From contig JAFMSR010000002.1 of the NCBI GenBank assembly GCA_022818135.1, positions 51,130,348 to 51,194,347 of the forward strand: 64,000 nucleotides of DNA, written 5' to 3'. Origin of the DNA: Saxidomus purpurata. Its lineage: Eukaryota; Mollusca; Bivalvia; Venerida; Veneridae. This document shows, in pieces, positions 2,784-63,011 of this stretch (positions within the stretch are counted from its first letter, which is position 1; every line of letters begins with the position of its first letter). A program made the position numbers and the translations under genes. The notes beneath the pieces are model-generated. The model was not told the DNA's origin. It worked only from the letters and a program-made list of their open reading frames with translations, and did not search any database.

Positions 2784-5700
2784 CTAAGAAGATATGTGTT
2801 CTTTCGCCGCTTGGATATAATTTCCAATACCTATTAGATCGATGATGCCCCTCAAGACGACCCAGTAAGCAGCCTTCCTGCGTTCGACAAGGTATCGCGA
2901 CGTAGCTCTGCTTCGAAAATGGCCCGAAAAATGGCCACTCGGTACGGATAAACAAGGCTCACAATTAACTGACCTAAGTATGAGCTTCATTTCGCACATA
3001 CATCGGTATATCTCATGTTGCCAACCAATGAACTCATTTTTAATGCTTCTTTCAACTGGAAATAAGTTTCTCAATCCGCGTTCGTAATGGCGTAGGAATT
3101 CTATATAATTAGCAAGTTCATGCAAACGCTCATAAGCAATGTTCGTGTTGTTGCAGAAATTTGACGTCCAATCACTCGTCTGAAAGAAAAGAAAAGTGGT
3201 ATATTAATAAAATTTTATATTAGCTTGTGGACCTGTTTGTAGTATTTAACAGTAGTATACTAGTATAAGTTTATGGATCTTTGTGGACGGTGATAAAAGC
3301 CATCACGAAATATTAGAAAATGACGATTTCCACACCTTCATGTACAAAATCTTCGAACTGGTAAACATCATATCGACTTCAAATCACACAACTTCGGAAA
3401 AGTTTGATAATGTAGATATATACATCGCCTGCCATTTCCTGATTTGCAGGTTCATAAACAGAAAATTACCCCACTCCCGGTTTTCTTGTTCATTTTAATT
3501 CATCTGAGCTATTCAAAAGTGGCATGTGAACGTTTTTCAGAAGTTACATCTGAACAGCGAGGTACTGCAGAAAATTACCAGGCTATACATGATGAAGCCA
3601 TTATAATGTTTTATAATAAGTTTATGAAATTACAATTTATCTCGGGTCCGAAGTGCTACCAAGCTGTTTATAACCTTTCAGACTTCTATTTTTTCTTAAG
3701 GACAAAGCACTAGATGGGTGTTCAGTAGAACACTTGTGTCGCTTTCTTACACTTTGTCAGAATAACCAATAATTTTGTGACAAAATCTAAGTAAAAAAAG
3801 GGGCATAACTCTGTCAAATATGACCTTTACCTACAAACGCTGTCGGCATCACTACCCTTTTGTCACAAGCAATACAATTTCAAAGTTTGATGAAGAAATC
3901 TTAAGAAATGGCAAAGTTAAAGCCAAAACCAAACTACATAAAGGGACATAACTCTTTCAAATATGATCTTGACCTGCACATTTTTGCATCATCACGACCA
4001 TTCTGTTATAAGAAATGCAAATTGAAAGTTTGATGAAGAAATCTTAAAGGGACATACCCTATAACTGATACCAAACTAAATAACCTTCAAAACATAAAAA
4101 ATAGAAACTTTGGAAGTATTTTAACTTAACTTAAAAGTTTCAGCTGTGCATTCCAGTCATTATTGATAAAATCTTTTCTCTTGATTAATGACGTCACTGT
4201 GTAAACAAAAACAATAACAACAAAACAGTAAATAAAATCAGTGTAAATGGTGTCGTAACATAAATCAAGTTAACTGGACGTGTGTCATCCCCCGCCCCCC
4301 ACCCCGCGCTTTGCCCCATTTAGCCATCCATAGTATGCCATGTATGATCCTCTAGATACGTCGGGTAAATTGAACAGCCAAAACAAGATGCGCGTGCAGC
4401 GTCGTTCAAGGTCGGTTTATTGCAGAATAACCCAAATATATTTTGTTCTACATGTGTGTAGGTTATTCACTGGTCGTGTAAGAATCTATAATTTATGCTT
4501 TTGACGTTATTTAATTGGACACCAGTTTTAGGGAGTGCCTCTTTAAAAAACAGAAGCAGTACTTTCTGCCTTACATTAACATAATTTTATCAGAAAAAAC
4601 TAAGACAGATAACGTATAAAATTATTATGTTTTAAACAAATTATGATTAGTAGTGTATCTATAATCCATCTTTTTTGCAGACTTCACATTAGTTATTGGT
4701 TGTATTGAATAAAGATTCAAAGGGATAAAAAACACTTTCAAATGGTTTACTTACATTTACATATTGTTCCATTCCATTTTCAGTTTCGACAGGTATATCT
4801 TCTCTTTCAAAAAGTACAACATGCCATATGTTCTCTATCTGAAATGTTTAACAAACAATATTTTATAAATATAGTATCCAACTAAAACACATTTTTACAG
4901 GATATAAAACGGATCGGTGTTTCTTAATGGGGCACTCCCTACATCTAGCAGATTGTATTATTCAAACATAAATAATTTATTATATGAACGTACACTGATA
5001 AATTGATACCATTTTGAAAACCAACATTTATCGTAAAATGCCTCATTTGAGCACAAAAAAACATAGGAGACCTTCTGCAATAAATCGCTATCCACCGATT
5101 AATTGTACAACAACAACTTCACAAAGGTTACTGAATGATTTACGGTGCTGCATCAAATTTTAAAACGCTGCTTTTACCGATCTTTACTGGAAATATGGTT
5201 TAAACTTTAAAGTTTAAACAACAATAATTGCAAATATTCTATTTTCCAAACATATATAATGTGTCCATTGAACGTAAAACGATAAATAAATACAGTTTTG
5301 AAGAACAACATCTATCAAAAAATGCCTCATTTTAGCACAATTAATCAACAAAGAGGCCTTTATGCTGTTGATGGTATTTAATTTTACATCAGTTTTAGGA
5401 AGTGTCTCTTTAACGCTAGAAAAGATTTATAATGATTTACTCACATTCGGTTTAAGTCTGTCTTCAGCGGCAATTTTTGCTCCGTCGATTTTTCTTTCAA
5501 GATCGTTCAAATACCTCGCCAAAGTTTCGTTTGCAACATAATGATTGTTTATCGTGTTGCATTCTTCTCTTGCAAAAAAGCAAGGAGGAGACCGTGTTTC
5601 TCGAACACTTTTTGATAAAACACCACTCATAGTTCTTCCAATCATGAAGAATGCATATGTACAGAAACCTTAAATAAAGATGAAGAATGGTTTATTTAAC

Positions 5701-5998
5701 ATTGCATTGATAATATTTACATTGTTGTTTTAAATAATTCTAAATATATCCTTGTGCCTTGAAACTCATTTACTTTTATTAATTTTATCTTTTCTGCTTC
5801 ACGTTACGATTTCTATGAATTACGTAATCACACTGTAACGTCTGAACCCCACACACATATAAAGTGAAAAGTCAGCCTAAAAAAACTTCGTTTGCCATTT
5901 GTTCTGTTGCTGAGCATTAATTCTCAGCAAACGTCACAGAAATATAAGAGCAAAACTGCTAAAAGAAATATAATCATACATGAATACATATAAGCCAT
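2784..5998 (-). CDS. Secreted four-helix cytokine-like protein, copy A (4 exons)
   Basis: The coding exons, complement of 5980-5998, 5445-5668, 4761-4838 and 2784-3179, give 238 residues. Exon 1 (19 nt, ATGGCTTATATG...) ends in phase 1 before a GTATGA donor, and exon 2 follows a TTTAAG acceptor; together they make a hydrophobic signal peptide of about 22 residues. The mature part has a Cys-x6-Cys pair, an amphipathic helix with ARYLNDLERKI, the exon-3 linker, NFCNNT, a second helix (ERLHELANYIEFL), a third (CMCEMKLILRS), NCEPC, and a last helix (KAAYWVVLRGI). The six mature cysteines shared by A, B and D are all present, with one extra. Sequons NET and NNT suggest glycosylation. The reading frame is open throughout. 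MITEs lie in introns 2 and 3. A second possible exon-3 donor six bases downstream would add two residues. That it is a class I cytokine is inferred from architecture; no close family member is recognised by sequence. Confidence 0.75.
3798..4043 (+). repeat. Two tandem ~145-bp repeat units in intron 3 of copy A
   Basis: Units beginning gg(g/a)(g/c)ataactct at about 3799 and 3944 share tttgatgaagaaatcttaa at their ends. Each carries a gacctttacc or cttgacc string. They look like the tandem core of a pearl-like element without recognisable ends. Confidence 0.45.
4048..4542 (+). mobile_element. TTAA-flanked MITE, GGGACATACCC family
   Basis: TTAA flanks at 4044-4047 and 4543-4546. The left end is agggacataccctataactg, and the right end is the inverted, related cagttttagggagtgcctc. 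Related elements occur at 4928-5409 (opposite strand), 11243-11611 and 29898-30250. No coding capacity. It lies in intron 3 of copy A. Confidence 0.65.
4928..5409 (-). mobile_element. TTAA-flanked MITE, GGGACATACCC family, inverted
   Basis: TTAA at 4924-4927 and 5410-5413. The ends are tggggcactccctacatc and cagttttaggaagtgtctc. Internal strings such as aaaatgcctcatttgagc match, on the opposite strand, aaaatgaggcat in the copies at 11.5 kb and 30.1 kb. It fills most of intron 2 of copy A. Confidence 0.65.
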
Positions 5999-6097: not shown

Positions 6098-6112
6098 GAA
6101 GGTTTTTATATT
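6098..6112 (-). promoter_or_regulatory. Putative TATA box of copy A
   Basis: On the minus strand AATATAAAAACC lies about 105 bp upstream of the exon-1 ATG at 5998. B, D and E have TATA-like strings at comparable distances. The conserved upstream block of the other copies is not found here; an inverted-repeat element begins about 115 bp further upstream. Confidence 0.5.
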
Positions 6113-9265: not shown

Positions 9266-9280
9266 TACCATTTTAGAGTA

Positions 9281-10924
9281 AACAAGAGCCATGTTACACA
9301 TGGTTAATCCCCCCGCCAGGAAAAAGTTACCTGAAGGTTGTACTTTCGTACATTTTACTTGGTGAGAGGAAATCCTTAAAAAGCCGTATAGTTATGGTCA
9401 TGCTGAGTACAGTTTTCAAGTAAGTGGAAAAAGAATAAGGCAATGAAGAGAAGGTTTGCAAAATTATATTAATGTTCATTATCAGTACAGGTATATTTTT
9501 CTATTTGACTAAAAGTAGACAAGGTAGAGTTATTGTTCTTGCACACTGCACTTCCTACCAATGTGCTATGTCAGTGTATTAAGTTTGAAGAAAATCCCTC
9601 AAGTACTTTTGGAGTTATGCTCTGGACAAAACTTTTAAAGTAAATCTGATAAAGGGGAATAACTCTAAAAGTAGGCAAGGTAGAGTTATTGTTCTTACAC
9701 ACTGCACTTCCTACCAATGTGCTATGTCAGTGTATTAAGTTTGTAGAAAATCCCTCAAGTACTTTTGGAGTTATGCTCTGGACAAAACTTTTAAAGTAAA
9801 TCTGATAAAGGGGAATAACTCTAAAAGTAGGCAAGGTAGAGTTATTGTTCTTGCACACTGCACTTCCTACCAATGTGCTATGTCAGTGTATTAAGTTTGA
9901 AGAAAATCCCTCAAGTACTTTTGGAGTTATGCCTCGGACAAGTAAATCTGATAAAGGGGAATAACTCTAAAAGTAGGCAAGGTAGAGTTATTGTTCTTGC
10001 ACACTGCACTTCCTACCAATGTGCTATGTCAGTGTATTAAGTTTGAAGTAAATCCTCAAGTACTTCTGGAGTTATGCTTCGGACAAGTAAATCTGATAAA
10101 GGGGAATAACTCTAAAAGTAGGCAAGGTAGAGTTATTGTTCTTGCACACTGCACTTCCTACCAATGTGCTATGTCAGTGTATTAAGTTTGAAGTAAATCC
10201 CTCAAGTACTTTTGGAGTTATGCTCTGGACAAAACTTTTAAAGTAAATCTGATAAAGGGGAATAACTCTAAAAGTAGGCAAGGTAGAGTTATTGTTCTTG
10301 CACACTGCACTTCCTACCAATGTGCTATGTCAGTGTATTAAGTTTGAAGAAAATCCCTCAAGTACTTTTGGAGTTATGCTTCGGACAAGTAAATCTGATA
10401 AAGGGGAATAACTCTAAAAGTAGGCAAGGTAGAGTTATTGTTCTTGCACACTGCACTTCCTACCAATGTGCTATGTCAGTGTATTAAGTTTGAAGTAAAT
10501 CCCTCAAGTACTTTTGGAGTTATGCTCCGGACAAAACTTTTAGAGTAAATCTGATAAAGGGGAATAACTTTAAAAGTAGGCAAGGTAGAGTTATTGTTCT
10601 TGCACACTGCACTTCCTACCAATGTGCTATGTCAGTGTATTAAGTTTGAAGAAAATCCCTCAAGTACTTTTGGAGTTATGCTCCGGACAAAGTTTTTCAA
10701 GTAAATCTGATAAAAGGGGAATAACTCTAAAAGTAGGCAAAGTAGAGTTATTGTTCTTACACACTGCACTTTCTCCCAATGTGCTCTGTCAGTGTATGAA
10801 GTTTGAAGAAAATCGCTCAAGTACTTTTGGAGTTATGCTCCGGACAAAATTGGGACGGACGCACGGACGGACGGACGGACAAAGGGCATTTCTAATATCC
10901 CCTTCGCCTTCGGCGGGGGGATAA
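9281..10924 (+). mobile_element. Pearl-like element with nine ~146/156-bp tandem units
   Basis: It starts aacaagagccatgttacaca. Nine tandem units begin aaaagtag(g/a)caaggtagag at 9511, 9667, 9823, 9969, 10114, 10270, 10416, 10572 and 10729, with periods 156, 156, 146, 145, 156, 146, 156 and 157. The short units lack about ten bases around ggacaa(aacttttaaa)gtaaatc. A gacggacgcacggacggacg microsatellite follows, then the hairpin ccccttcgccttcggcgggg and ataa. Internal tandem core, CGGA microsatellite and terminal hairpin are the pearl/Helentron-type layout. ORFs inside are repeat artefacts. Confidence 0.75.
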
Positions 10925-15160: not shown

Positions 15161-17036
15161 TTAGACGGATATCTGTTGTTTTGCGACTATGATATAATTT
15201 TCAATACCAGTAAGATCGCTAATGCCTCTCAAAACAACCCAGTAAGCAGCTCTCATTTCATTCGTACGGGTATCCTTAGTTTTGTTTTGAAAATAGCCTG
15301 AAAATTGGCCACTCGGTACAGGTGAGCAAGGCTCACAGTTAAGTGACCTAAGAATGAGCTTAATTTCGCACATACATAGATATATCTCATCTTGCCAATG
15401 AACGAAATCTTTTGTCATGTTCGTTTCATTATTCGAGTTTAACAGCCCTTGTTCTTTATGGAGCAGGAATTCTATATAGTGAGCAAGTTCATTCAAACGC
15501 TCGAAAACAACGTGTGTATTGTTGCAAAAATTTGGTATCCCGTTATTCGTCTGAAAAAAAAATGCAATTGTTTTAATTAATACATATATCGAACAGTCTT
15601 TTTTTAAATTGCGAACTTTGTATACATGTTAAAACAATGTATATAATGAGAACCATTATCAATTGCATCAATTTCTATCTACTTGTATATCGATTGAAAT
15701 CCTCAGCCTCCATAGATGTGGTTGATGTTCTTAGTCTGTACACAGTTACTTTTACAAGTGACAAATTAATCAAGATAACCTATAAAATTGTGGATACTGT
15801 TAATTTGGAAAGTATTTATAGATTTATATGCTAGACAAATAATATTATCATAATGGTGTCTATTTTTGCTGACACGTTTTCATTGGCTGCAATGAATAAT
15901 AACGAATAAAGATACTTACATATTGCATCGTTCCATTCTCAACGTCTTTAGTTATAGTTTCTTTTTCAAATGGGTCACTTAAAATATGCCACTGCTGTTC
16001 TGTCTAAAATGTATAACACACACTATTTAAGACATCTGTTAAATTATTTTTTTTATAAGAAATAGTACGATTCACAGGTTCATGAGAAAGATGTAAAACT
16101 TATATTTTTGATGATATATTGGGGGAGAACACAAGATAAAGAAATGTAATACTCTTCCACAGCGTATAGTTCTTATTCAAAAAAAGCAAAGAGATCAACA
16201 TTTGCAGGACTTATTACTCATTTATCAAAGTGACATGGATTGACAAGATGACAGCATACTACTTTGTCACAAAAAATTGAGATGTTAACCGAATTACATT
16301 TGTAAGTATTGACATTTCGTTTTACAGATTTAGGAAATTACACTTTTATACTTCAATGTACAGACTTGCAACGAAACACATAATGAAAAGACAAGAAAAA
16401 ACTGACGAAAATAATTTAGCTTACTGTAGACATAAGGTCTTCAGCTGCATATCTTGCTCCGACAATTTTCCTTTCAAGGTCGTTCAAATTCTTATACTTC
16501 TTCAACAAAGATTCCTTTGTTACGGACGTACTCCTCGTTGTATTACATTCTTCGCTTTTAGAAAAGCATTTTGGGGCGTGTGTCCCTCGAGCATTTCTTG
16601 ATAAAACGCCAGCCGTTGATCCGGTCACGAAGGAGACAAATATACAGAAATCTAAAATAAAATTGAACAATATAAATGTCTTACGGTCTGCCTAACATAT
16701 CAAAACTAATATTAAAGCGCGATATACAATAATTCTTATATACATAAAAGGCATGTCCTTTCTCCTTGCAGTTACTGTACATCTTTCATCCTTTCAGCTC
16801 TACGACTGTGAATTTTAAATATATCTTAATCAATTATTGATAACTTAATTTCACAGATAAACAAAAGAAATGGAAATCTATTTTTGTTTGTCTGTTAGTT
16901 TTAAATCATTTGTTTACCACGTAAGATACTGTTTCTGTTATACTGCTTTTCAATAAAGCGTAAGCAATTGCATCGGTTAAACATTAGAACAATATTGATT
17001 GATAAATAAAAACGTACGTATATACATATAAGCCAT
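15161..17036 (-). CDS. Secreted four-helix cytokine-like protein, copy B (4 exons)
   Basis: Complement of exons 17018-17036, 16425-16651, 15920-16003 and 15161-15550 encodes 239 residues. Donors are GTACGT, GTAAGC and GTAAGT; acceptors are TTTTAG, TTTTAG and TTTCAG; phases are 1, 0, 0 as in the other copies. The signal peptide MAYMYI-H-FCIFVSF ends near TGSTAG. The mature protein has Cys-x6-Cys, helix A (LNDLERKIVGARYAAED), an acidic linker from exon 3, NFCNNT, helix B (ERLNELAHYIEFLLHKEQ), helix C (YLCMCEIKLILRSL), NCEPCSPVPSG, and helix D (RAAYWVVLRGISDLTGIENY). Several N-x-S/T sites lie between helices. It is the least rearranged copy, with short introns and intact proximal promoter, so it is a good reference. 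Function as an extracellular helical cytokine is inferred. Confidence 0.8.
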
Positions 17037-17121: not shown

Positions 17122-17306
17122 GGGTTTATATACTAAAGGTGAAGGGGATTCACACTCCAACGCCTCGTAATATTCTTGATATCAGAACTTATTTTCAGCA
17201 TAACGTGGTTTCCTTGTTTTCGGTAAAAGTTTGAAGAAACCAGTAAAGTCATTGATCATTCATCCCAGATGCCTACCGGTATCCGGTACTTGACTCTTCC
17301 GAGTGT
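17122..17306 (-). promoter_or_regulatory. Proximal promoter of copy B: TATA box and conserved block
   Basis: Minus-strand TATATAAA (17124-17132) lies about 90 bp upstream of the ATG. The 20-bp block whose plus-strand text is TACTTGACTCTTCCGAGTGT is at 17287-17306 and is identical upstream of C, D and E. Between them a caaggaaacca stretch and a gtttcttcaaac stretch are also shared. The block contains a CGGAAG core of ETS-site type. Confidence 0.55.
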
Positions 17307-24567: not shown

Positions 24568-25556
24568 ATATTGCCCCATTTCATTTTTGATTTCTTGAGT
24601 AATAATTTCTTTGTCGGTAAGTACATGTAAAACATACCATCTGTCTTCTATCTAAAATTGTTTTTACATATATCATTTTTTAGAAAATATTTCATACTGT
24701 CTACATTTTGTACAAAAAACATTAAAATTACTTGAAACTGAATAATTAAACAATTAAGAAATGTAATAAATCATTGCTGCAGTCTGTTACTAATTAATTA
24801 ACAAAGAAATGATACAAACACTCCATTATGTCACAAACGTGCATTTACAAATCTACGGAAATTTCTGCCACGTAAAAAATAATCAAATTTACAAGTCTTT
24901 TGAAAGTTAGTACTAGATATTGTCAATGAAGACAATTCAAACCAAGCATGATTCAAGTACTGATAACTAACTTTACTTACCTAGGGTTTAATGTCTTCAG
25001 CTACATATTTGGCTCCCACTATTTTCGGTTCAAGGTCGTTCAAATATCTCACCAAAGTCGCGTTTGTTATAGGTTCATTGTTGGCCGGATTGCATTGTTC
25101 TGTCGCAGAAAAGCAGGGTGGGTGTCGTGTTTCTCTAACAGTTCTTGATAAAATGCCAGACGTACTTCTTGTCATGAAGGATACAACTATGCAGAAAACT
25201 GAAATGAAATTGAAAACCATATAAATCATATGGTAAATTTAACATTTCATGCATTATTTTTATAGTGTTGTTTCCAAGAATTCTTAAGTCATATCCTTAC
25301 TCCTCGTTACTTTTTTGCTATTTTCATCTTATCTTTTATGTTTTACTTAGATGAATTAAAAATCATCGTATAATCTTAATACTACACATATGAAATAGAA
25401 ATGAAAATATTTTTGTTCTTTTAAGTTATTGGTTGACGATAATGTTTCTGTAATGTTGCTTAACAAAAGAAAGTGTTAATCCGCATTTAATTTAGTGAAA
25501 TATATTAAACGCTTTTGCTTGATAAAAGAGAACATACATAAATACAAAAAAGCCAT
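24568..25556 (-). pseudogene. Cytokine-like copy C, truncated (exon 4 missing, stop at end of exon 2)
   Basis: Exon 1 (25538-25556, ATGGCTTTTTTG..., donor GTATGT), exon 2 (24981-25198, acceptor TTTCAG) and exon 3 (24568-24651) are present with good splice sites and the same phases as intact copies. The last codon of exon 2 is TAG directly before the GTAAGT donor, where D and E have TAT. Exon 4, with three of the four helices and four of six cysteines, is not found downstream. At best it could make a short secreted peptide with the Cys-x6-Cys pair and helix A. Exons 2 and 3 show no other damage, so inactivation may be recent. Confidence 0.75.
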
Positions 25557-28041: not shown

Positions 28042-28059
28042 TATGTGCTAGATCTACAG

Positions 28060-34740: not shown

Positions 34741-34742
34741 TA

Positions 34743-47328: not shown

Positions 47329-47900
47329 AAGAGATTTTACCAATGTTTGAAATTATTTGTCTCAATGTTGTTTTGTTAAAAAAATTACACTATCAATTTA
47401 TTAAATATATTCACTTTGTATAATTGAAAATTGAATTGCATGTACTATTATACATATATGAATTATGTTTATGCTTTAGTGTAAATAAACGGATTGTCGA
47501 TAGGCAATTCCAAAGAGAAAAAAAAAAAGTAGAAATAATTTATTGGATATAGTAACACTATAATTATATATAAATATTTATCACATGGACTATGTCATAA
47601 CTAAAACATTTCGTTACTCTATAAGCTCTAAATGAAAGAGATATCATAAATCATAAAAATACATGTATATAAAATAAATAAGGTTTAAATGATAAAGCAC
47701 ACTGTAAAATATTAAGTATGCACATACAAATGTGTATCACAGAAAATTCTTTGGCAAGTACAATATAGATATTGAAGAACAACTTAAACCGTAAGAAAAC
47801 ATATATGCGGCTTTACATAACAAGTGTTCGTAATGATATGTTTCAATTTGTTCATGAGAAATGTTGTTTTTTGCACTAGAAGGCGAAAAACCCGCAACAT

Positions 47901-49804
47901 CTAGATGAATAACTGTTGTTTTGCATCTATGACATAATTTTGAATAGATGTTAAATCGCTAATACCCCTTAAGACGACCCAATAAGCAGCCTTCATTTGT
48001 TCGGCACGGTTCGACTCAGCTCTGTTTTGAAAATGGCTCGAAACATGACCACTCGGAACAGGTGAGCACGGTTCACAATTAAGTGATCTAAGTATGAGCT
48101 TCATTTCGCACATCGACAGATATATTCCATCTTGCCAATCAGTGAACTTTTTTTTTGTGCTTGTTTCAATATCCGAGTTTATCAGTCCGCTTGCATTATG
48201 GAGAGTCTCTATATAATTAGCAAGTTCATTCAAGCGCTCGTAAACAATGTGTGTATTGTTGCAAAAATTTGGCATCCCACCATTCCTCTGAAAATAATCC
48301 GAATATTTATACATTTATAAAGTTTTATAACAGCTTGCGAACTTTTCTATACATTTTAAGACGATGTAGTAATGAGAACCGTTTTACATTTTGTTAAGCT
48401 GATCAAATTCTTATGTATTTTGGTTGAACGTGTTACTATACTTTCAGACTTACATTACTGAGAAACAAAATATAATATCAACATTTACACGATTTCATGT
48501 AATGCGCATTCTGAATCTCCATAGATTTAGTTGGTATGCCAAATCTGTATACAGTTACGATCGGTCATGATTAAGTTGTCAAGATAACTACTAATTGTCG
48601 AGAGTTAACAGAAAATACATTTTCCTTATCTTATTATAGATTTATCAGAATAAGGTTCAAATATTGATAATCGATAGGTATATTTGTATGACATAAGTCT
48701 AAGAATTAAGTATTGTTTTGCTAACACGACAATATCGGTCACATTAAATGATAATTAATAATGAAATAAGAGAATAAATTTATTCCGGTCACTTACATAT
48801 TGCACCTTTTCATTATCAGTTTCTTCAGTTATCTGTTCCCTTTCGTTAAGTTCAACAAGCCACTTGTCTTCTATCTAAAATGTTTTACACACACTTCTTT
48901 ATAAACTATTTTCTAGCCTACAGAAAACATCTATTTTACTAGAAACTATTTATGCTTTCCAGAAATAAATGTAATTATAATAAGATACTGCAATTTGTTA
49001 CTAATCAAAACAACAACAACAAAACAAAAACAACACAACAAAAATTAGCATGACTTATTACTCAATTATGTAACAACCATGAATTGACAAGCCTGTAATA
49101 AAATTGCTTTATTATGTTATAAAAAGCCATTGTCTGAAAGGAATTAAAGTACTGACGTTACATTTTTTTTGTATTAAGATATTAAACTTTGATACTAGAT
49201 ACTGCCAATGAAGAAACATCCTGACAATGCAAAATTTAAACGATGAAAAACTTTACTTACATAGGGTTTTATGTCTTCAGCTGCATATCTTGCTCCCGCT
49301 ATTTTTGGTTCAAGGTCGTTCAAATATCTCATCAAAGTCGCGTTTGTAATAGGTTCATTGTTCGCCGGATTGCAATTTCCTTCCGCAGAAAAGCAGGGTG
49401 GAAGTCGTGTTTCTCGAACAGTTCTTGATAAAACGCCTGCCATACTTCCGGTCATGGAGGACACAAATATGCAGAAACCTAAAATAAAATTGAAAATATG
49501 TATTTAGTAAATTTTAGATATCCAGTTTCATATTGTACAGTGTTGTTTAAAAACAATTCTTAAGTAATATTCATAGTTTTTAATACTTTTTTTATTGCTT
49601 TCATCTTTTTTGTTTTACGAAATATGACTTCTATGAATTAAAAAAAATCATAAAGTCATCTGAATACTGCACAAATAAAACCGAATTTCATTTTTGTTAT
49701 TTAAAGATATTCATTTAACTGAAGATCTTGTCAAACTGCATCAGTGAAATATCAAAACAATATTGCTTGATAAATCATAACGTACATAAATACACAAAAG
49801 CCAT
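47901..49804 (-). CDS. Secreted four-helix cytokine-like protein, copy D (4 exons)
   Basis: Complement of 49786-49804, 49261-49478, 48797-48874 and 47901-48287 encodes 233 residues. Signal peptide residues 1-21 (MAFVYLC-FCIFVSSMTGSMAG); residue 7 is split by intron 1. Mature cysteines: 35, 42, 114, 165, 176, 179. Predicted helices: A about 49-76, B about 118-138, C about 153-175, D about 200-228. Sequons: N52, N115, N136. Exon 3 (80-105) is an acidic linker between helix A and Cys114. Length, helix order and a Cys pair before helix A facing a Cys-x2-Cys after helix C resemble LIF. Donors are GTACGT, GTAAGT, GTAAGT. Intact, in a tandem pair with damaged copy E. The family assignment is structural inference. 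Confidence 0.8.
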
Positions 49805-49903
49805 GCTAATTCTTTTGAATCTTTTAATGTCTACAGCTGATTTTATAGTAACAAGATTATTAGTTTGTCTCGTTTTCTTTTGTTTAAGAAAGACATTCTT
49901 GGA

Positions 49904-50108
49904 GATTTTATATACAACAGGTGATGGAAATTCAGTTTGAGTCATGTGTTCCAATTTTAGAAGTGAAATTAAAACGCCGACACATCGTAAGTATTTAGAT
50001 ACCAAACCTGTATTTTATGCACTACGTAGTTTCCTTGTTTCTATAAAAGTTTAAAGAAACCATTCATTACATTGATCGTTTATGCAGGTACTTGACTCTT
50101 CCGAGTGT
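49904..50108 (-). promoter_or_regulatory. Proximal promoter of copy D
   Basis: Minus-strand TATATAAAATCTCC (about 49904-49913) lies 100 bp upstream of the ATG. The conserved TACTTGACTCTTCCGAGTGT block is at 50089-50108. Between them the minus strand reads gtttctttaaac and agaaacaaggaaacta, which carry two GAAAC cores and are partly shared with B and C. Confidence 0.6.
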
Positions 50109-50849
50109 TTGTGGGAAGCCTGTGGGATATAACATTTAAAATTCTCTTCTGGTTTCGTAAGTAATCGTAGTAAACTAATATGCAGCTATTCGACATGCAG
50201 ATATTGTCCCAACATTTGACTTATTTTTATTTATACGACAAAGTTAGTTAAAATAAAGGGCAACCATTCAGTAAGTTTGATAAATGTATTTTGTGACAAT
50301 AAATACCGTACCTGTTTCTGATCGGTGCAAGCAAGTGACAAAATGCATATAACGCAGCAAAAAAAAACACCAAACAATTATAATCCAATATTAGTTATGC
50401 CAAGTTACAAAATTCTACTCAATCTAGTGCCGTCGCGTTTCTTATATCACAAAATTGAGGTTGCCACAGGGTATTGTCTGCGTGTGCTTTCCTTTGGGAG
50501 ACCTTTTTAGATCTTTTCATAACCATTTATATCTAAACGCATTAAACTTGTTTTATCTACGAGGAATTTTAAGTTTGGTTGGATCTGATTCTGTTTAATT
50601 TCAGAACATATAGGTTTTTTTGTATTCAGATTATACCATTTTTTAAATTATGCAAAGCCCAATGAAAGAACAATTGACGAACTATTGCAGAATAACATGT
50701 ATGTTTGCTAAAATTACGATCCTGTATTCAAAATTAGCTAAAAGTATTTGCATATAACATAAAATTATGAAAGCTTGAAACAGTTGGAGGCATAAAATCC
50801 ACGATTAAGAATTACTGCTATTAACATTACGATTAAGATTAACAAATGA

Positions 50850-51985: not shown

Positions 51986-51997
51986 TGTATATATATA

Positions 51998-52385
51998 TAC
52001 AGTACAGCACAGGCGAAACCCCACGCATATGCGTCCATGCGGCATGTAAATAAGAGTCTGAAAGCATGGAGATGCGGCGGGAAATCAAACGCGTGACGCG
52101 ACATCGCAAATTGTATGCGGCATTCAATTGCCGCATCTGAAAGACAAAATAGCAATCAAGCGCATTCAAGCGCGACAACGAGTCCCGCCGAGTGATGCCG
52201 CGTGTCGCGACGTTATGCGGCATGTCATTTTCTATACAGGTAAAAGCGATGAAATGAAAAATATGTACTATATTGTATTGCACACATGTATAAAACTGTG
52301 TTTTTCAATAATGATGTACAATGTATTCCATATTGTAACCAATAAAATTTCAGTCTTAAATGTTTTTAGTAATTACATGTTTACG
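51998..52385 (-). mobile_element. Shortened inverted copy of the mariner-type element
   Basis: TA then cagtacagcacaggcg at 52000-52015, followed by the reverse complement of 34740-34360 (cgcatatgcgtccatgcggc, ccaataaaatttcagtctt). The other terminal repeat is missing. It sits at the edge of the tandem array. Confidence 0.65.
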
Positions 52386-52399: not shown

Positions 52400-52941
52400 A
52401 TGTACTATATTACAGTGATATAACTGCTGAAAGTACGTCTGTTATGATTTATTTTTAAAAAGTGATTCTTTATCACGTCTAATTAAACAATATTAAAGAA
52501 TAAATTTTACATATAACAAAGAACTTAACTACCGCGATCGTCTTACTAGGTCAATCGCACTCATATATCTCATAGGTCGCCGTGGAAACCAACCACATTT
52601 GGCAAAAACTGAGTGGAAAATGTACTCAGGTATAGGTATTTAGCGATTTAAAAAAAACATTGATAAATCTGACATATATAAATCAAAGCGCTGTGAGCGC
52701 TGAAGGCCTGGGGGCTATAGATTAACTCCCCTAAAAACAACTTTTGACCTTCGTGATTTACGCTGAACCTTACATAAAGCGCGGGTCGAAATGTGCATAG
52801 GGCGAAATTTAGTATATGACACAGAATGAATGATTCACAAAAACATGGGTGGCAGGGAAGTTTGTTTTATTATAAAACGTACGTTAAATGAAAAATAATC
52901 ACATGGTCAACAATATCAATTGTTTGAGAGAACAATAAAAA
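52400..52941. other. Spacer between duplication units; no gene seen
   Basis: Mixed sequence with a small GC-richer part (52680-52800). No exon, RNA gene or repeat end recognised. Confidence 0.4.
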
Positions 52942-53756
52942 TAATTCAATCTGCGCTTTGTTCAACTTCAAGCGATATCTGATGATGTGGATCGAAAATT
53001 ATTGTGTACCAAGGACAAGACCTTGAAACAGAAATAAACAAAGCAATACCAACAATGAAATATAAATACAGTACTGTACAATATGTATAACAGGGAAAAC
53101 CAAAAATGATTCTTGGATACATTGTAGTTACCAAAACGGTCACATTTACACTGCGCAATGCCTTCTCGTCGTGGCATTTAGTCTTTTCAGTACTTCAGTA
53201 TATGACATTACCTATTTACATAAATGTGCATCATCTGAAAACCAAATATTATCAATAATGTTACCACTTTGATTCATCCACTATGATTTCAGATTTTAAT
53301 TTGAATATTTACTGTTTGCTTCTTTGTTTCAGCAATCGTAGTTAAATTTAGTTAGATGAATGAATAACATATTTCCTAACATAAGATATAGTTTAAAAAT
53401 CTATCCAAATGTTTAAATGCTACGTTTTCGGTTGTTATCATATAAATTGAACTGCGTACCGCAGATAATGTTAAGATTAAATTTGTAAAAGTGCACAATT
53501 TCAAACTCAAAGTACTAAACAGAAACGTAGAAAAATGTTTTTGGATACGTAAGCGACATTGGCTATGGCTGTGTTCTTTACGGTCAGCAAAATTATTTGA
53601 AAAAGAACTGTTCTAAAGACATTTATCAAGCCAAAATTAGTGCAAAGTGAGTCTAAAAAGGATATACTTTGTGTCATATTGGATATCTTGGATGTAATTT
53701 CGGAAAAGGTACTTTTTGCCGAAGTTTATTGATAGTTGATAATTATATACACAATA

Positions 53757-54653
53757 ATGTCAGAGTCAGAGGCACACGAAGGGGAACCCAACGTATACCC
53801 AGAAGTTGATCCACGATTACATTTTCCAATGGACACTATACCATTGTTATTCATGAGAGAATCGTCAATTTTCGGCGACCGAAAACCCACACAAGATGAA
53901 TGGATTAGCCATGTTGAGTTATACCAGGCTATTGGCCAGAACATAGAAGCATCCCACATAACTGGACTACAGAGAATCCGTGGAATGTGGCGCATCTATC
54001 TTGACAATTTAGAAGATAAAGTTAAACTCATGGCAGGGGGCATCCCATTAAGGGGGAAGAATGTCAGTGTTATGAACACGAATCCAGATCGTCTGGATAA
54101 TGAAAATACTACAAGAGTGCGTGTTAAGAACATCCCGCTCTCTGTAGAGGATGACACTCTAACCAGGACATTCACCTTGTTAGGGATCGAGGTTATCTCT
54201 GTTTCCCGTGAGAAATTGCGTGTAGGCGGCAAACTTACAAACTGTGAAACGGACGATAGATTTTGTATAGTGAAATCATCTACCCTTCAGAAACCTCTTC
54301 CCAATTTCATGAACTTTGGGAAATTTCATGGCCGTGTAATTCATTATGGCCAAGGCAAGGCCAAACCAAAAAACTGTTCTAAGTGCTTAGGAAGTGGTCA
54401 TGTGTTCAAAGAGTGTACCAACGATTGGGTATGCTCTAAATGCAATACCGCTGGTCACAAACGATCCGAGTGCATACAGGACGAGTCATCCGACGACGAG
54501 AACGACGGGAATGAGTCCGACAAACATTCAGATTCTCAGGTGGTAGATACGGTCGAAAAGCAAATATTGCAATTCGCCGAGCCTAATCAGTCATCTTCAG
54601 GTGGACATTCCTCCGGTAATACCACAAAACCCGATAAACCATTAATCCCGTGA
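53757..54653 (+). CDS. LINE ORF1 protein with two CCHC zinc knuckles, intact copy
   Basis: Open frame of 298 residues from MSESEAH (an upstream in-frame ATG at 53736 would add seven). Residues about 60-200 hold a region with VRVKNIPLSVEDDTLTRTF, resembling an RNA-recognition fold. CSKCLGSGHVFKEC and CSKCNTAGHKRSEC are two CX2CX4HX4C knuckles, followed by an acidic Ser/Asp/Glu tail. It probably binds LINE RNA. The stop at 54651 overlaps a second open frame in the -1 register that continues KSDISRAHKQSSMDNF. In copy 1 the same gene is broken twice. Confidence 0.8.
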   Translation: MSESEAHEGEPNVYPEVDPRLHFPMDTIPLLFMRESSIFGDRKPTQDEWISHVELYQAIGQNIEASHITGLQRIRGMWRIYLDNLEDKVKLMAGGIPLRGKNVSVMNTNPDRLDNENTTRVRVKNIPLSVEDDTLTRTFTLLGIEVISVSREKLRVGGKLTNCETDDRFCIVKSSTLQKPLPNFMNFGKFHGRVIHYGQGKAKPKNCSKCLGSGHVFKECTNDWVCSKCNTAGHKRSECIQDESSDDENDGNESDKHSDSQVVDTVEKQILQFAEPNQSSSGGHSSGNTTKPDKPLIP

Positions 54654-54841
54654 AATCAGACATTTCACGTGCGCACAAACAATCTAGTATGGACAATTTT
54701 ATTACCCCAGGCAAAGGCAGACAGGTCAACGTCACAGAACGTTCACTGCCAACACCGACGGAGCAGCTCCATGACAGAAAACATGTGAACAAAGAAAAAA
54801 GAAAAAACATAATAAAAAATGACTTGTTTAAAATTATATGA
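54650..54841 (+). pseudogene. ORF1 C-terminal extension in the -1 frame, with PIP-box-like QSSMDNF
   Basis: The frame overlaps the ORF1 stop by one base and runs 63 codons to TGA. QSSMDNFITPGKGR (54680 onward) resembles a PCNA-interacting peptide (Q-x-x-hydrophobic-x-x-aromatic) followed by basic residues; the second aromatic is replaced by Ile. The sequence after it is Lys-rich. The same frame exists in copy 1 (from about 41665). It is either the original ORF1 tail separated by a shared frameshift or a product of -1 frameshifting. Confidence 0.45.
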
Positions 54842-55002
54842 TATGCATAAGCATAATCTGAACTCGAACTTTGAAACGTTTTACGGACATGAGAATATAA
54901 ATATGATTTGGATAAACATAAATGGTTTATGTTTGAAAATATTAAAAACCTTTTGGAAGGTTAAAAGTAGAAACAATAAAATGTTTGTATAATATGTATA
55001 TA

Positions 55003-55845
55003 GTAATGACTATTGATGGGAATATTTATCGTTCTGAAATGAATTTGATTAATATAATCAATATTTCCAATTTTATGAACAATGTTCTAAAAATATGTAT
55101 TGAAAACTACAATCTACATTTTTTGATCTTCCTATTAGCAATCACGTACGTAGCTGTTCTTTCCTTTTTCTTTTCGTACGAAGGAACGTTTACAGAGTGT
55201 CTTCATAAATTCATAAATAACAGCAAATTTGTAACAACAGATCTTATTGTTCTTTCTGTAAGGTTGTTGGTTAACGTTTTTGCTCAGTGTTGTAATTTAA
55301 AATATAATAAAGACAATGATTCATTTTTATGTATTGAAAACTACAATCTATATCATTTGCTGCTCATATTTACAAGCACATACATAGCTTTCTTTTCATT
55401 TTTCTTTTTGTACGAAGGAACTTTACAGCGCGTCTTTGTAAATTCATAAATAACAGCATATTTGTGACAACAGATCTTTTTGCTCTTTCTGTAAGATTGT
55501 TGGTTAACGATTTTGCTCAGTGTTGTTTATACAATAAAGCCAATGCTTCAGTTTTATGTAACTATGCAAATGACAGAACAAAACTAATGTTAAATTTTAC
55601 CAAAATGAATATACAAGAAGCGATATATAAGCATTGTACTATTTCGAATAATGATCTATTAGCATGTTATGATTGGAATTTGAATACAGACTATAGATTA
55701 ATTGTACATTACACAAATCTAAATATTCATACTTGTAACGGTTTAAACTGGTATATAATACAAGAAACGCACGAATATTTTCATGTTATAGCTCGACACC
55801 GGTCAAATATAATCAGCATAGTAAACTTACATTTTATTTTTCAAT
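55003..55845 (+). repeat. LINE inter-ORF spacer, copy 2 (two tandem units)
   Basis: Units start at 55094 and 55328 (tatgtattgaaaactacaat); a diverged partial unit runs to about 55530. One 233-bp unit fewer than copy 1. Confidence 0.6.
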
Positions 55846-58800
55846 ATGACAACGATTCATAGCAAAAATTCTTTTAGTCACCTTGTTTCACTAAATGCAC
55901 AAGGATTACGTGACAAATCAAAAAGAGGAAAATTAATTCAATGGTTATTGCAACAAAAAGCTGAAATAGCATTAATTCAGGAGACTCATTTTACAACTGA
56001 TTTATATGCTGATTTGAAATCGGAGTTCGAAAACTGGGACGTTTTTCATTCGTTCGGTTCAAATTTTAGTTGTGGCTGTTCTATTTTTATTAAAAAACAA
56101 ATTCCTTACAAGGTCCTTAATGAAACATGCGATCAATTTGGTAGGTTCGTAATCATTAATATAGAATTGTATAACAATATTTTTACTTTGATGTATATAT
56201 GATGCATATATGCACCGAATGATAAAAAGGAAAGAAACACATTTTATTTAATGTTAGGAAAAACAATTATTGAAATAAGCGAAGGTGCAAAAATAATTGG
56301 GAAAGATCACAATGATATATTATCTCATACTGATCGAATAAATAGAAATACGCATGATAAAAGAAACAAAGTTCCTGTAAAAAACTTAACAAATCTCTTA
56401 AAAAATAATAAATTATCCGATGTCTGGAAAACACACAATAAAGATAAACAACAATTTACTTGGCGAAGAAAAAATGATCTAGAAAAAAGTAGGATCGATT
56501 TCTGGCTCATAGATGAAAATCTGATACCGCTTGCACTGTCTTCTGACATACGGCCAGCTTAATTCAAAGTACAGATCATTTAGCAATTTCACTTAAGCTA
56601 AAAATACCTAATGATCGAGGCCCTGGGTTCTGGAAATTAAACAACTCACATTTAAAGGATTCCGAATATAAAGAGAATGTTAAAAATATAGTTCAGTCAG
56701 CGCAAAATCTTAAAATCAGTGGCAACCAGTTGAAATGGGAAATATGTAAAATAGAAATAAGAGATTTCATAATAGAATTTGCTAAGATAAAATCAAGAAA
56801 AACACATAACAAATTACATCATCTAGAAAAAGAACTTAAACTATTACTGATAACAAATGACAAAAATGACAGAATTAATAATCGCATAAACGAATTAGAA
56901 AAGGAAATCGAAAATATATATGACACAAAAACGCATGGTGCGCAAATAAGATCTAGAGTACAATTTATAGAAGAAGGAGAAAAAAACTCAATTTTTATAC
57001 CCCCGCACAACAAAGTTGTAAGGGGGGTATACTGGAATCAGCTTGTCCGTCCGGCCGTCCGGCTGTCCGGCCGTCCGGCTGTCCGGCCGTCCGGCGTCCG
57101 TCGGTTTTTTCTTGTCCGCCCAATAACTTAAGATTCCTTTGACCCACAGTCTTCATATTTGGCATGGAGGTTAGTCATGATTAGTAGAAGACCCCTATCC
57201 ATTTTGAGGTCACCAGGTCAAAGGTCAAGGTCACAGGGGCCTTGACTTCAAAAAGCTTGTCCGCCCAATAACTTAAGATTCCTTTGACCCACAGTCTTCA
57301 TATTTGGCATGGAGGTTAGTCCTGATTAGTAGATGACCCCTATCCATTTTGAGGTCACCAGGTCAAAGTTCAAGGTCACAGGGGCCTTGACTTCAAAAAG
57401 CTTTTCCGCCCAATAACTTAAGATTCCTTTGACCCACAGTCTTCATATTTGGCATGGAGGTTAGTCATGATTAGTAGATGACCCCTATCCATTTTGAGGT
57501 CACCAGGTCAAAGGTCAAGGTCACAGGGGCCTTGACTTCAAAAAGCTAGTTTCATTCAAAGATCAATTGTGAGTATTAACATTTCATTCTCCATCTACAT
57601 TTTCCATTTTCACATTTGAAGCATATAATTATGTTCTCATATATTAATTATAAAACACCCCCAGGTAAAGCTGCATGAAGGAGGGTGGGAGTATTTAAGT
57701 CATGCAGTTTCAGTTTTAGGTCAGTAGGTCAAAGGTTAAGGTCACTTAGATCTTTGCCACTAAAAACATGTAGAATGCATAACTAAGCAATGCATAGGCT
57801 TACTACCCTCAGATATAACAGGAAGGTTCTCCTTGAGCTCTAAATGGCCACTGTTGATTCTGACAAAGCGGTAAGCGGGGGGTATTCAAGCCATGACAAT
57901 GGCAGTTCTAGTTTTTCATAGTCTTGAAAAGTCCAGACAAAACAGGAAAATTACTAGCTCTTTGCTGGTAGAAAATAAACATATAACAGATACTGATGAA
58001 ATATTGAACCAAGAAGTACATTTTTATAAAAAGTTGTATGCATGTAAATCATCTGATACAGATTGTGACGAATACTTAAATACCATTCGTATTGATAATC
58101 AATTAAATGACGACCTAGCTAATAAATGTGAAGGTAAATTAACATTAAAGGAGTGTAATGATGCTGTCAATGAGATGAAGTTGAATAAAAGTCCAGGTCT
58201 AGATGGTCTAACTGCAGAATTTTACCAAGTGTTCTGGGAAATAATAGGTATTTTAGTAACTGATGCACTAAATGAAGGCCATGACAATGGTGAACTTTCT
58301 GACACACAAAAACAGAGCGTTTTCTCACTTATTTACAAAAAAGGAAATCCTGAATTACTGGAAACCTATCTCGTTACTAAATATAGATTACAAAATTCTT
58401 ACAAGAGTTCTTTCAAAACGCTTACAGTTAGTACTACCTAAAATAATAAGTTTAGATCAACAGGGATATATAAAAAATAGATTCATTGGGTATAACATCA
58501 GGCAGATACAGGACATAATCGATTATGCAGACTGTTTAGACATAGATGGTGTAATTTTGTTCCTAGATTTTCGAAAAGCCTTTGATACAATTAATTGGAA
58601 ATTCATGCTAGCAGTGCTTAAAAAATTTGGTCTGAAAGACTCTTTCATCAATTGGGTTCAAGTCATTTATCATAACATATCGTCTTGTGTAATAAACAAT
58701 GGTTGGAAATCAAATTTCTTTGAACTATCACGTGGGATTCGACAAGTCTGTCCATTATCGGCTCTTTTATTTATAATTGTTGCTGAAATTTTAGCCACAA

Positions 58801-60543
58801 AAATGAGAAAAAGCGAACAAATTGATGGTATTTCTATCAGATATGAAAATTCGTTTAAACATTTAGAAATTACCCAATTGGCAGATGATACAACACTTTT
58901 TCTTAAAAATCAATCAGAAGTTCCGATAGCATTACAACTTATAGAGGAATACGGAAAATACTCAGGATTAGAATTGAATAAATCAAAAACTGAAGCTTTA
59001 TGGGTTGGAAAATCTAAACATAAAAATAGTAATATGTTACATGGAATAAATTTTACAAATAAACATATAAAGGCACTTGGTGTTTATTTCGGACATAACA
59101 AAGAAGACTGCGATAATTTAAACTGGAATACTAAAATAAATAAATGTGAATCAATCTTATCCAATTGGAAAAAAAGGAATTTAACTATTTATGGTCGAAT
59201 AGTAGTCATTAAATCGATAATTGTCCCAAAATTTACATATCTTCTTCGAAACATGGTGGTTCCTAAAGAAATCATAAATAAAATCAATTCGCTACTTTTT
59301 AATTTTTTATGGAATGGTAAAAAAGATAAAATAAAAAGATCGGTCATTCTAGGAAATAAACTAAACGGAGGTCTTGAAATGATAGATATAGAAACATTCG
59401 CAAAAAGTATGAAATTTAGATGGATTTAAAGTCTGCTAAATTCTGACGACGCAAGTTGGAAGGTTATACCAACATTCTTTTTAATTCAATATGGAAATGA
59501 TTTTCTTATATTTAGCATGAATCTAGACTCAATCAAGTCATTACAATCACCAAAAATTCAACTTTCTCCGTTTTATAAGTCTTTAATAGATATATGCATA
59601 AATATTTATCACAAAGATAGAAAGACGCCTAAATCTTTTGAAACTGTTAGAAAAGAAGTGATCTGGGGTAATAAACACATAAAGTATAAGGGTAAATGCA
59701 TAGTATTTCAAAACTGGATTGATTCAGGTATTATATATGTAAATGATCTGTTATCTGATTCTGGCTTGATTGACAGTGCCTCCCTTTTTAATACCCGAGA
59801 AAATAAGACGAATTGGATATCAGAAATAAATATACTCAAAAGTGCAATACCAGCCGCGTGGAAACTTCTAGTTAAAAGTACTGAGTCAATAAAAACAAGT
59901 GTTAAAACTTCAAGAAAATTTACTTTTGAAAGTAATAGGACAATTGATCAATCAACGAATAGGGATGTATATAATTTAATCTTGAAACCTAAACTCGAGA
60001 GCCCTTATGTACATAGGTACTGGGAGGAATTTATCTTGCATCACGTTCATTGGAACTCCTTTTATTTTTTTAATAATAAAGTTCTTCAAGATAACAAAGT
60101 TAAACAGTTGAAATACAAGGCAATACATAGACTTGTTGCTACTAATTCATATCTTTTTAAAATTAAAATATTTGAAAGCCCACTGTGCAAACAATGCGGA
60201 GATTTTGAAGATTATGATCATTTTTTTATAAGTTGTCCTTATCTCAACTTTTTTTGGGAAAAGGTATCAGACATCTTCAGAAAATGTGGAATTTGCAAAT
60301 CATTAAAGACAATAGAACATATTATCATTGGCTACAAAATAAATTTTATTGAGTGCAATTTTAAGTTATATCGCGTACAGCATATACAAAACATATTTCA
60401 TCAGCGAACTTAGAACAAAGTCTTCAAACTTACTGAAACTCCTATATTACGATTTCGTAGTCTTAATTCAATACATGGTTAAGAAAAAAGAGAAAACATT
60501 TTTTATTAATAGATTTACTAATTATCTTAAGGATATATTATAA
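55846..60543 (+). pseudogene. LINE ORF2 (endonuclease, reverse transcriptase), copy 2, broken
   Basis: Same domain series as copy 1. Shared lesions: TGA at 56200-56202, a frameshift at about 56562, TAA at 59427-59429 and a shift near 60345. Private lesions: the 57000-57911 insertion between the endonuclease and reverse transcriptase parts, and an 8-bp deletion at about 58360 (ctggaaacctatc for ctggaaaactggaaacctat), which shifts the frame before the NWKP motif. The FDTINW, GIRQVCPLS and LADDTTLF motifs remain readable. Confidence 0.8.
57000..57911 (-). mobile_element. Pearl/Helentron-like insertion unique to LINE copy 2
   Basis: Copy 1 has an uninterrupted T-run at the same site (aactcaattttttttcatag). 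The element begins atacccccgcacaacaaagt then tgtaaggggggtat, a clear hairpin, followed by a ccgtccggccgtccggctgt microsatellite. Three ~148-bp units (ttgtccgcccaataacttaa) follow, each with aggtcaaag(g/t)tcaaggtcac. The other end is cagttctag before TTTTT. Insertion into a T-run and a CTAG end agree with Helitron-type behaviour. Confidence 0.75.
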
Positions 60544-61113
60544 AAGATATTTTACCAATGTTTGAAATTATTTGTCTCAATGTTGTTTTGTTAAAATAAT
60601 TACACTATCCATTTATTAAATATATTCACTTTGTATAATTGAAAATTGAATTGCATGTACTATTATACATATATGAATTATGTTTATGCTTTAGTGTAAA
60701 TAAACGGATTGTCGATAGGCAATTCCAAAGAGAAAAAAAATGTAGAAATAATTTATTGGATATAGTAACACTATAATTATATATAAATATTTATCACATG
60801 GACTATGTCATAACTAAAACATTTCGTTACTCTATAAGCTCTAAATGAAAGAGATATCATAAATCATAAAAATACATGTATATAAAATAAATAAGGTTTA
60901 AATGATAAAGCACACTGTAAAATATTAAGTATGCACATACAAATGTGTATCACAGAAAATTCTTTGGCAAGTACAATATAGATATTGAAGAACAACTTAA
61001 ACCGTAAGAAAACATATATGCGGCTTTACATAACAAGTGTTCGTAATGATATGTTTCAATTTGTTCATGAGAAATGTTGTTTTTTGCACTAGAAGGCGAA
61101 AAACCGGCAACAT

Positions 61114-63011
61114 CTAGATGAATAACTGTTGTTTTGCATCTATGACATAATTTTGAATAGATGTTAAATCGCTTATACCCCTTAAGACGACCCAATAAGC
61201 AGCTTTCATTTGTTCGGCACGGTTCGACTCAACTCTGTTTTGAAAATGGCTCGAAACATGACCACTCGGAACAGGTGAGCACGGTTCACAATTAAGTGAT
61301 CTAAGTATGAGCTTCATTTCGCACATCGACAGATATATTCCATCTTGCCAATCAGTGAACTTTTTTTTGTGCTTGTTTCAATATCCGAGTTTATCAGTCC
61401 GCTTGCATTATGGAGAGTCTCTATATAATTAGCAAGTTCATTCAAGCGCTCGTAAACAATGTGTGTATTGTTGCAAAAATTTGGCATCCCACCATTCCTC
61501 TGAAAATAATCCGAATATTTATACATTTATAAAGTTTTATAACAGCTTGCGAACTTTTCTATACATTTTAAGACGATGTAGTAATGAGAACCATTATACA
61601 TTTTGTTAAGCTGATCAAATTCTTATGTATTTTGGTTGAACGTGTTACTATACTTTCAGACTTACATTACTGAGAAACAAAATATAATATCAACATTTAC
61701 ACGATTTCATGTAATGCGCATTCTGAATCTCCATAGATTTAGTTGGTATGCAAAATCTGTATACAGTTACAATCGGTCATGATTAAGTTGTCAAGATAAC
61801 TACTAATTGTCGAGAGTTAACAGAAAATACATTTTCCTTATCTTATTATAGATTTATCAGAATAAGGTTCAAATATTGATAATCGATAGGTATATTTGTA
61901 TGACATAAGTCTAAGAATTAAGTATTGTTTTGCTAACACGACAATATCGGTCACATTAAATGATAATTAATAATGAAATAAGATAATAAATTTATTCCGG
62001 TCACTTACATATTGCACCTTTTCATTATCAGTTTCTTCAGTTATCTGTTCCCTTTCGTTAAGTTCAACAAGCCAGCTGTCTTCTATCTAAAATGTTTTAC
62101 ACACACTTCTTTATAAACTATTTTCTAGCCTACAGAAAACATCTATTTTACTAGAAACTATTTATGCTTTCCAGAAATCAATGTAATAATAAGATACTGC
62201 AATTTGTTACTAATCAAAACAACAACAACAAAACAAAAACAACACAACAAAAATTAGCAGGACTTATTACTCAATTATGTAACAGACATGAATTGACAAG
62301 CCTGTAATAAAATTGCTTTATTATGTTATAAAAAGCCATTGTGTGAAAGGAATTAAAGTACTGACGTTACATTTTTTTGTATTAAGATATTAAACTTTGA
62401 TACTAGATACTGCCAATGAAGAAACATCCTGACAATGCAAAATTTAAACGATGAAAAACTTTACTTACATAGGATTTTATGTCTTCAGCTGAATATCTGG
62501 CTCCCACTATTTTTGGTTCAAGGTCGTTCAAATATCTCATCAAAGTCGCGTTTGTAATAGGTTCATTGTTCGCCGGATTGCAATTTCCTTCCGCAGAAAA
62601 GCAGGGTGGAAGTCGTGTTTCTCGAACAGTTCTTGATAAAACGCCTGCCATACTTCCGGTCATGGAGGACACAAATATGCAGAAACCTAAAATAAAATTG
62701 AAAATATGTATTTAGTAAATTTTAGATATCCAGTTTCATATTGTACAGTGTTGTTTAAAAACAATTCTTAAGTAATATCCATAGTTTTTAATACTTTTTT
62801 TATTGCTTTCATCTTTTTTGTTTTACGAAATATGACGTCTATGAATTAAAAAAATCATAAAGTCATCTGAATACTACATAAATAAAACCGAATTTCATTT
62901 TTGTTATTTAAAGATATTCATTTAACTGAAGGTCTTGTCAAACCGCATCAGTGAAATATCAAAACAATATTGCTTGATAAATCATAACGTACATAAGTAC
63001 ACAAAAGCCAT
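61114..63011 (-). pseudogene. Cytokine-like copy E, one-base frameshift in exon 4
   Basis: Exons 62993-63011, 62469-62686, 62009-62086 and 61114-61499 on the minus strand are near-identical to copy D, with all splice sites kept (GTACGT, GTAAGT, GTAAGT donors). Exon 4 is 386 bp instead of 387: the plus-strand T-run after gtgaac has eight T, against nine in D. The frame then reads STKKSSLIGKMEYICRCAK and stops, losing helices C and D and three cysteines. Downstream coding sequence is otherwise preserved, so the change is very recent or a homopolymer sequencing error. Confidence 0.75.

Follow-up and report, generated by a model that had tools for sequence, protein, structure and literature searches.

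What kind of protein is encoded by a cluster of related genes in the genome of the bivalve Saxidomus purpurata? The cluster lies in a stretch of 64,000 nucleotides of contig JAFMSR010000002.1 (GenBank assembly GCA_022818135.1, positions 51,130,348 to 51,194,347 of the forward strand; hereafter the window) and consists of five related minus-strand gene copies, A to E, spread over positions 2784-63011 of the window, that is, from the final base of the copy A stop codon (2784) to the A of the copy E ATG (63011). An initial annotation had read them as genes for a family of helical cytokines resembling LIF. Our tentative preference, at just short of an even chance, is for a secreted class I long-chain helical cytokine-like ligand. 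It is unlikely that these genes represent the vertebrate IL-6/LIF lineage as true homologues in a mollusc or another non-chordate, and so supply the missing ligand for the IL6R-JAK-STAT module of molluscs; homology to LIF is unproven.

The five copies, with their exons and cysteines, were borne out by tblastn, alignment and splice sites; exon borders are putative, having been placed by block conservation, reading frame and splice signals. Copies A, B and D follow a four-exon model and E is laid out like D, with intron phases 1-0-0 and GT...AG borders in every modelled intron. As modelled, the first coding exon is 19 nt long (ATGGCTT...) and ends in phase 1 in 5/5 copies, and is followed by exons of 218-227 nt (exon 2), 78-84 nt (exon 3) and, in A, B, D and E, 386-396 nt (exon 4), the last carrying helices B, C and D of the predicted protein. 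The inner introns of copy A at 3180-4760 (1581 nt) and 4839-5444 (606 nt) are both divisible by 3, and its exons 2, 3 and 4 share one frame with 42 stops in between, probably by chance. Whereas all five copies had been said to encode the protein, frames are open throughout only in A, B and D, which translate into 238, 239 and 233 residues. Copy C is broken, TAG being the final codon of its exon 2, and tblastn found no exon-4 match in its vicinity. Copy E is a 98% identical duplicate of D, with A8 in exon 4 where D has A9, which shifts the frame; this one-base difference may be an assembly or sequencing error, or may be real.

Exon-4 tblastn E-values among A, B and D range from 1e-42 to 1e-57, so that the relatedness of the copies is beyond chance. 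Nucleotide identity in the exon-4 block is 75% for A-B, 75% for A-D and 76% for B-D, and falls below this, to about 67-71%, in the exon 1-2 region (D-E, 98%). Mature D has 58% identical residues with B and 60% with A, and the copies overall 55-59%. Pairs of A, B and D have dN/dS ratios of 0.46-0.54 when compared over their whole length and of 0.35-0.42 when exon 4 is taken separately, and the three look like real, constrained genes. Exon 3, which encodes the A-B loop, is the fastest evolving part of the three, its dN/dS being 0.56 in the A-D pair and exceeding 1 in A-B and B-D, although its 26 codons are too short for a selection test. The divergence of the copies, a dN/dS of about 0.5 and copy loss would be consistent with a fast-evolving immune family.

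The product is probably secreted. The best 9-residue Kyte-Doolittle mean at the N-terminus is 1.90 in A, 2.48 in B, 3.03 in C and 2.89 in D; the signal peptide was judged from hydropathy only and its cleavage before VLS was set by eye, giving mature chains of 212 residues in D, 218 in B and 216 in A. Six cysteines are common to A, B and D, at mature positions 14, 21, 93, 144, 155 and 158 in copy D. The first two form a Cys-x6-Cys motif at residues 14 and 21 in all three, before helix A as annotated, this helix being weakly modelled. The CNNT cysteine, which had been placed ahead of helix B, is present, yet it falls within the opening turns of predicted helix B, while NCEPC does stand directly past predicted helix C. 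The single cysteine described in helix C is single in D only, since A and B have two there, the seventh cysteine of these copies lying two residues ahead of the common one. In none of the three copies does a cysteine fall within predicted helix D.

This arrangement recalls that of LIF, for which the passages of PMC3865251 on disulfides give C12-C134, C18-C131 and C60-C163 as the expected bridges, the second alone being detected in that study. Both proteins have a cysteine pair ahead of helix A and Cys-x2-Cys past helix C, a local CxxCSxxxxGHV is common to LIF and copy D, and both carry N-glycosylation sequons (3 in D, 6 in B and 2 in A). Only four of the six LIF cysteines, those of both N-terminal bridges, have counterparts in A, B and D, where bonding is predicted, and not five as first claimed, the AB-loop cysteine being shifted into the start of helix B, at 72 residues from the second cysteine in D versus 42 in LIF. 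The third LIF bridge, which ties the AB loop to helix D, has no counterpart, the remaining cysteine lying in helix C, with a helix D that has none, and the N-terminal pair is Cys-x6-Cys here versus Cys-x5-Cys in LIF. Identity with LIF in the residues flanking CxxC has a P of 0.011 in D, 0.16 in B and 0.055 in A, at a site picked after alignment, and is suggestive only.

Gene structure provides a second comparison. The first coding exon of LIF is also 19 nt long and ends in phase 1, as in all modelled copies here, and the coding part of LIF is interrupted by two introns, against three in the Saxidomus genes. In the passages of PMC538256 on human LIF-D, where exon length is unstated, the exon-D primer is ATG plus 16 nt, i.e. 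19 nt, and the frame changes past the 6th residue when exon 1 is spliced directly to exon 3, which implies a border at codon 6-7 and fits an exon of this length and phase. We regard gene structure and cysteines together as better evidence than sequence scores for a LIF/IL-6-type likeness.

Structure predictions bear on the fold. AlphaFold was run on contiguous translations of the window only. With exon 4 of copy B as query and A and D aligned, a model with a pLDDT of 68 and a pTM of 0.60 was obtained, with helices at 4-36, 41-69, 85-91 (short) and 95-128; the remaining four models of this run had pLDDT values of 57, 56, 42 and 40. A read-through of both introns of copy A (945 residues, stops written as G, single-exon rows of the other copies aligned) gave a model of mean pLDDT 36, in which helix A spans 31-56, helix B 817-847 and helix C 854-885; a short helix at 898-905 precedes helix D, which is modelled as 909-927 and 929-944. 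Here pLDDT was 55-65 in helix A and 51-70 in most of B, C and D, and exon 3 was modelled as strands at about 50. With the introns left out, the predicted spacing in copy A would be 31 residues for A-B, 6 for B-C and 23 for C-D, a long-short-long loop order such as up-up-down-down cytokines would require. Long helices B, C and D, a short BC loop and a long CD loop are supported but not proved by these models. Their short CD-loop helix, beside the long ones, is a likeness to IL-6, which also carries one according to the structural description in PMC7378365. Of the four helices initially annotated, B, C and D are thus predicted at moderate confidence, and helix A no better than the best intron stretch.

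Several observations weigh against a class I cytokine. Intron text in the read-through model itself contains helices of up to 19 residues and blocks with pLDDT values as high as 62, which leaves helix A as no more than a suggestion. Foldseek and VIA searches with the exon-4 model, which is without helix A, and with the weak read-through model named no family and gave generic helical matches, with no cytokine among the best 50 rows of each, and for the exon-4 model VIA listed, among others, three-helix bundles of antiparallel type, which is not a cytokine topology. Helices A to D are not significantly amphipathic at 100 degrees (shuffle fractions 0.44, 0.20, 0.07 and 0.28), and the hydrophobic moment was dropped as support on these fractions. 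The AB-loop and helix-C cysteines are unlike those of LIF, and the cysteine count is odd in A and B. Exon 1 is itself among the inferred borders, and phase 1 by itself is weak evidence, being common near signal peptides, although the exact place is less weak; phase 1 introns are over-represented near position 20 of secreted animal proteins, in the part of PMC1626468 that treats them.

Sequence and profile searches add to these points. Pfam models exist for LIF/OSM, IL-6 and CNTF, and no Pfam cytokine family, LIF/OSM included, was matched at E up to 10, in a search in which HMMER filters discard most matches above about 0.1; the PDB sequence search gave no cytokine. Weak Pfam matches to LT-IIB, DUF1216, EPF, DUF2281 and PLATZ, all below cut-offs and each in a single copy, were set aside, and a ferritin-like protein was rejected, no Pfam match of that kind being found and the cysteines lying at the ends. 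The Pfam and PDB nulls weigh little because known LIF-type cytokines miss each other likewise. In our calibration with phmmer against PDB (E up to 1), human LIF recovered 7 LIF sequences and one lectin, not CNTF, although PDB contains it, and CNTF, among cytokines, recovered CNTF only. Among LIF, CNTF, IL-6, IL-11 and OSM, 9/10 pairs had local hhalign probabilities below 1%, LIF-OSM reaching 12.6%. The A-B-D profile, at local probabilities of 0.05-0.80% against the same five, would fit a distant member or a non-member alike.

Controlled comparisons were of the same kind. In 12 pairwise tests, with A, B and D on one side and LIF and CNTF on the other, between 8 and 184 of 300 shuffles reached the score (local D-LIF, 46; local D-CNTF, 90; lowest, A-CNTF, 8). 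The best local alignment of D with LIF pairs ILRSLNCEPCSPVPSGHV with LLSNVLCRLCSKYHVGHV, at the end of helix C in both proteins, and copy A and the three-row profile also align best with LIF there, whereas copy B aligns best at a non-equivalent place. When ten hhalign tests were each set against 40 controls, only the global IL-6 match stood above all of them, and it was dropped, as it is not collinear and pairs helix D here with helix A of IL-6; the local LIF score was reached by 1/40 controls and those of the remaining tests by 3-34/40. The profile comparison gave no significant match to any cytokine. The best local profile alignments are at equivalent places in two cases of five (LIF and CNTF) and at non-equivalent places in three (IL-6, OSM and IL-11). 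In the CNTF case the helix D stretch YWVVLRGISDLTSI aligns with QWTVRSIHDLRFIS, a likeness that 18/40 controls match. Sequence homology to IL-6, CNTF and IL-11 is thus undetected and the cysteines differ from theirs, while the sequence score with LIF is not significant. No relatives were found by tblastn among 79 viral and 85 prokaryote pattern-matching stretches, as expected for an animal gene. Of the LIF-like family first described there remains a probably secreted, largely helical and duplicated product with an N-terminal cysteine pair and Cys-x2-Cys; because no Pfam match was obtained and the third bridge differs, we do not place it within LIF/OSM.

The same results suit a secreted helical bundle that is particular to its lineage, has no kinship with vertebrate cytokines and acts outside JAK-STAT, which is a real possibility if not a probable one. 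Such a product, e.g. a reproductive, mucosal or effector protein, would have acquired its long helices and end disulfides by convergence, and it would be in keeping with the lack of a cytokine by sequence, profile or fold in the matches listed and with an unproved up-up-down-down topology in which helix A is weak; fast divergence and copy loss fit reproductive proteins equally well. Against this, several coincidences would be needed, namely the 19-nt phase-1 exon, the loop pattern, and the cysteine pairs at the N-terminus and at the end of helix C.

If the product is instead a class I cytokine-like ligand, it would be a secreted, disulfide-linked four-helix chain with an up-up-down-down fold of LIF/IL-6 type, in which helix A and the topology are putative, as would be the disulfides C14-C158, C21-C155 and C93-C144 of copy D. 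It would bridge a gp130/Domeless-type receptor and set off JAK-STAT signalling, and would probably serve as a factor of immunity or of haemocytes. We infer this class I receptor and JAK-STAT step from the literature, IL6R, JAK and STAT co-occurring in Mollusca without a known IL6 ligand: a survey from 2026 that covered 18 metazoan phyla or subphyla (PMC13203501) reports the three together in Mollusca, found no IL6-family ligand beyond the vertebrates and leaves the molluscan ligand open. Drosophila Unpaired (Upd), which is named there and stands for the JAK-STAT ligands of insects, is comparable in proposed role only, as ligand of a Domeless/IL6R-like receptor. Divergent invertebrate type-I helical cytokines are described in PMC9010856, among them an amphioxus GH-like protein of 208 residues; their identity to vertebrate ones is low, and amphioxus is a chordate.

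The initial annotation knew of no LIF-type ligand in molluscs, and none figures among the open-licence papers listed, but a helical cytokine-like protein, the interferon (IFN)-like CgIFNLP, had been claimed earlier in oyster. Kinship with it would make the present family class II helical cytokines, signalling through a CgIFNR-3-like receptor and JAK-STAT, which we consider improbable. The descriptions in PMC8218723 and PMC9756803 present CgIFNLP as a helical-cytokine-like haemocyte protein, termed class II, and CgIFNR-3 as activating STAT3, GAS and ISRE reporters; by these descriptions CgIFNLP has about 15 kDa, as against mature chains of 212-218 residues here. The cysteine layout here is LIF-like, no IFN/IL-10-type Pfam match was found, and the fold searches listed generic helical matches. 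It is very improbable that all copies are relics of a decaying family without present function, as the broken copy C, the one-base shift in E and the excess of dN over dS in exon 3 of A-B and B-D might suggest, since in A, B and D the frames stay open, splice sites and the six common cysteines are retained and exon 4 is constrained (dN/dS as above), and since A, B, D and E each have a TATA-like site some 100 bp upstream.

Table. Exons and TATA-like sites of the five gene copies, in window positions.
Feature	Position	Strand	Basis
Copy A exon 4 (helices B, C, D; including stop codon)	2784..3179	-	tblastn, structure prediction
Copy A exon 3 (A-B loop)	4761..4838	-	
Copy A exon 2 (remaining signal peptide, Cys-x6-Cys, predicted helix A)	5445..5668	-	
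Copy A exon 1, 19 coding nt, phase 1	5980..5998	-	inferred
Copy A TATA-like site, -112 from ATG	6104..6110	-	
Copy B exon 4	15161..15550	-	
Copy B exon 3	15920..16003	-	
Copy B exon 2	16425..16651	-	
Copy B exon 1, 19 coding nt, phase 1	17018..17036	-	inferred
Copy B TATA-like site, -96 from ATG	17126..17132	-	
Copy C exon 3 (broken copy)	24568..24651	-	
Copy C exon 2, ending on TAG stop	24981..25198	-	
Copy C exon 1	25538..25556	-	inferred
Copy D exon 4	47901..48287	-	
Copy D exon 3	48797..48874	-	
Copy D exon 2	49261..49478	-	
Copy D exon 1, 19 coding nt, phase 1	49786..49804	-	inferred
Copy D TATA-like site, -110 from ATG	49908..49914	-	
Copy E exon 4, A-run 1 base below D, frame shifted	61114..61499	-	
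Copy E exon 3	62009..62086	-	
Copy E exon 2	62469..62686	-	
Copy E exon 1	62993..63011	-	inferred
Copy E TATA-like site, -112 from ATG	63117..63123	-	

The TATA-like sites, at -96 to -112, occur amid a few other matches, and none was found upstream of copy C. STAT, NF-kB and IRF patterns upstream of the genes were dropped as support, being scattered or absent and not common to the copies. Copies D and E lie in a segmental duplication of about 11 kb (39949-50720 and 52933-63946, about 98% identical, the two segments about 13 kb apart), each segment holding one cytokine-like copy and a LINE-type retrotransposon. The first segment has a 0.4-kb insert (45685-46117) and the second a 0.9-kb insert (56997-57911) with a 145-bp tandem array. 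The LINE-type element is on the plus strand, at 40752-47195 and 53736-60410, with frames broken in both copies; Pfam matches above cut-off are RVT_1 (44870-45715 and 58272-59426) and zf-RVT (46215-47195), and those below cut-off RVT_1 (43796-44863), Exo_endo_phos (55825-56199) and a C2H2 finger (53736-54650). Tandem units of 233 bp occur inside the LINE region at 42111-42776 (2.9 copies) and 55094-55526 (1.9 copies). Elsewhere in the window are a tandem array at 9509-10849 (period 156, 8.8 copies, 93% matches), arrays at 20836-21190 and 57111-57547 that hold GGTCAAGGTCAC-type motifs, a type of repeat common in bivalves, and dispersed repeats at 26829-28044, 33716-34745, 37907-38151 and 51995-52383, which are 77-96% identical and in both orientations.

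A family of helical proteins that is secreted and resembles LIF in gene structure and cysteines would be a direct candidate for the missing ligand of molluscan JAK-STAT signalling. It would also suggest that such ligands, missed by sequence search, might be sought through the length of the first exon, the intron phase, the arrangement of cysteines and the fold. If its members were true homologues, gp130-type cytokines would predate the split between protostomes and deuterostomes.

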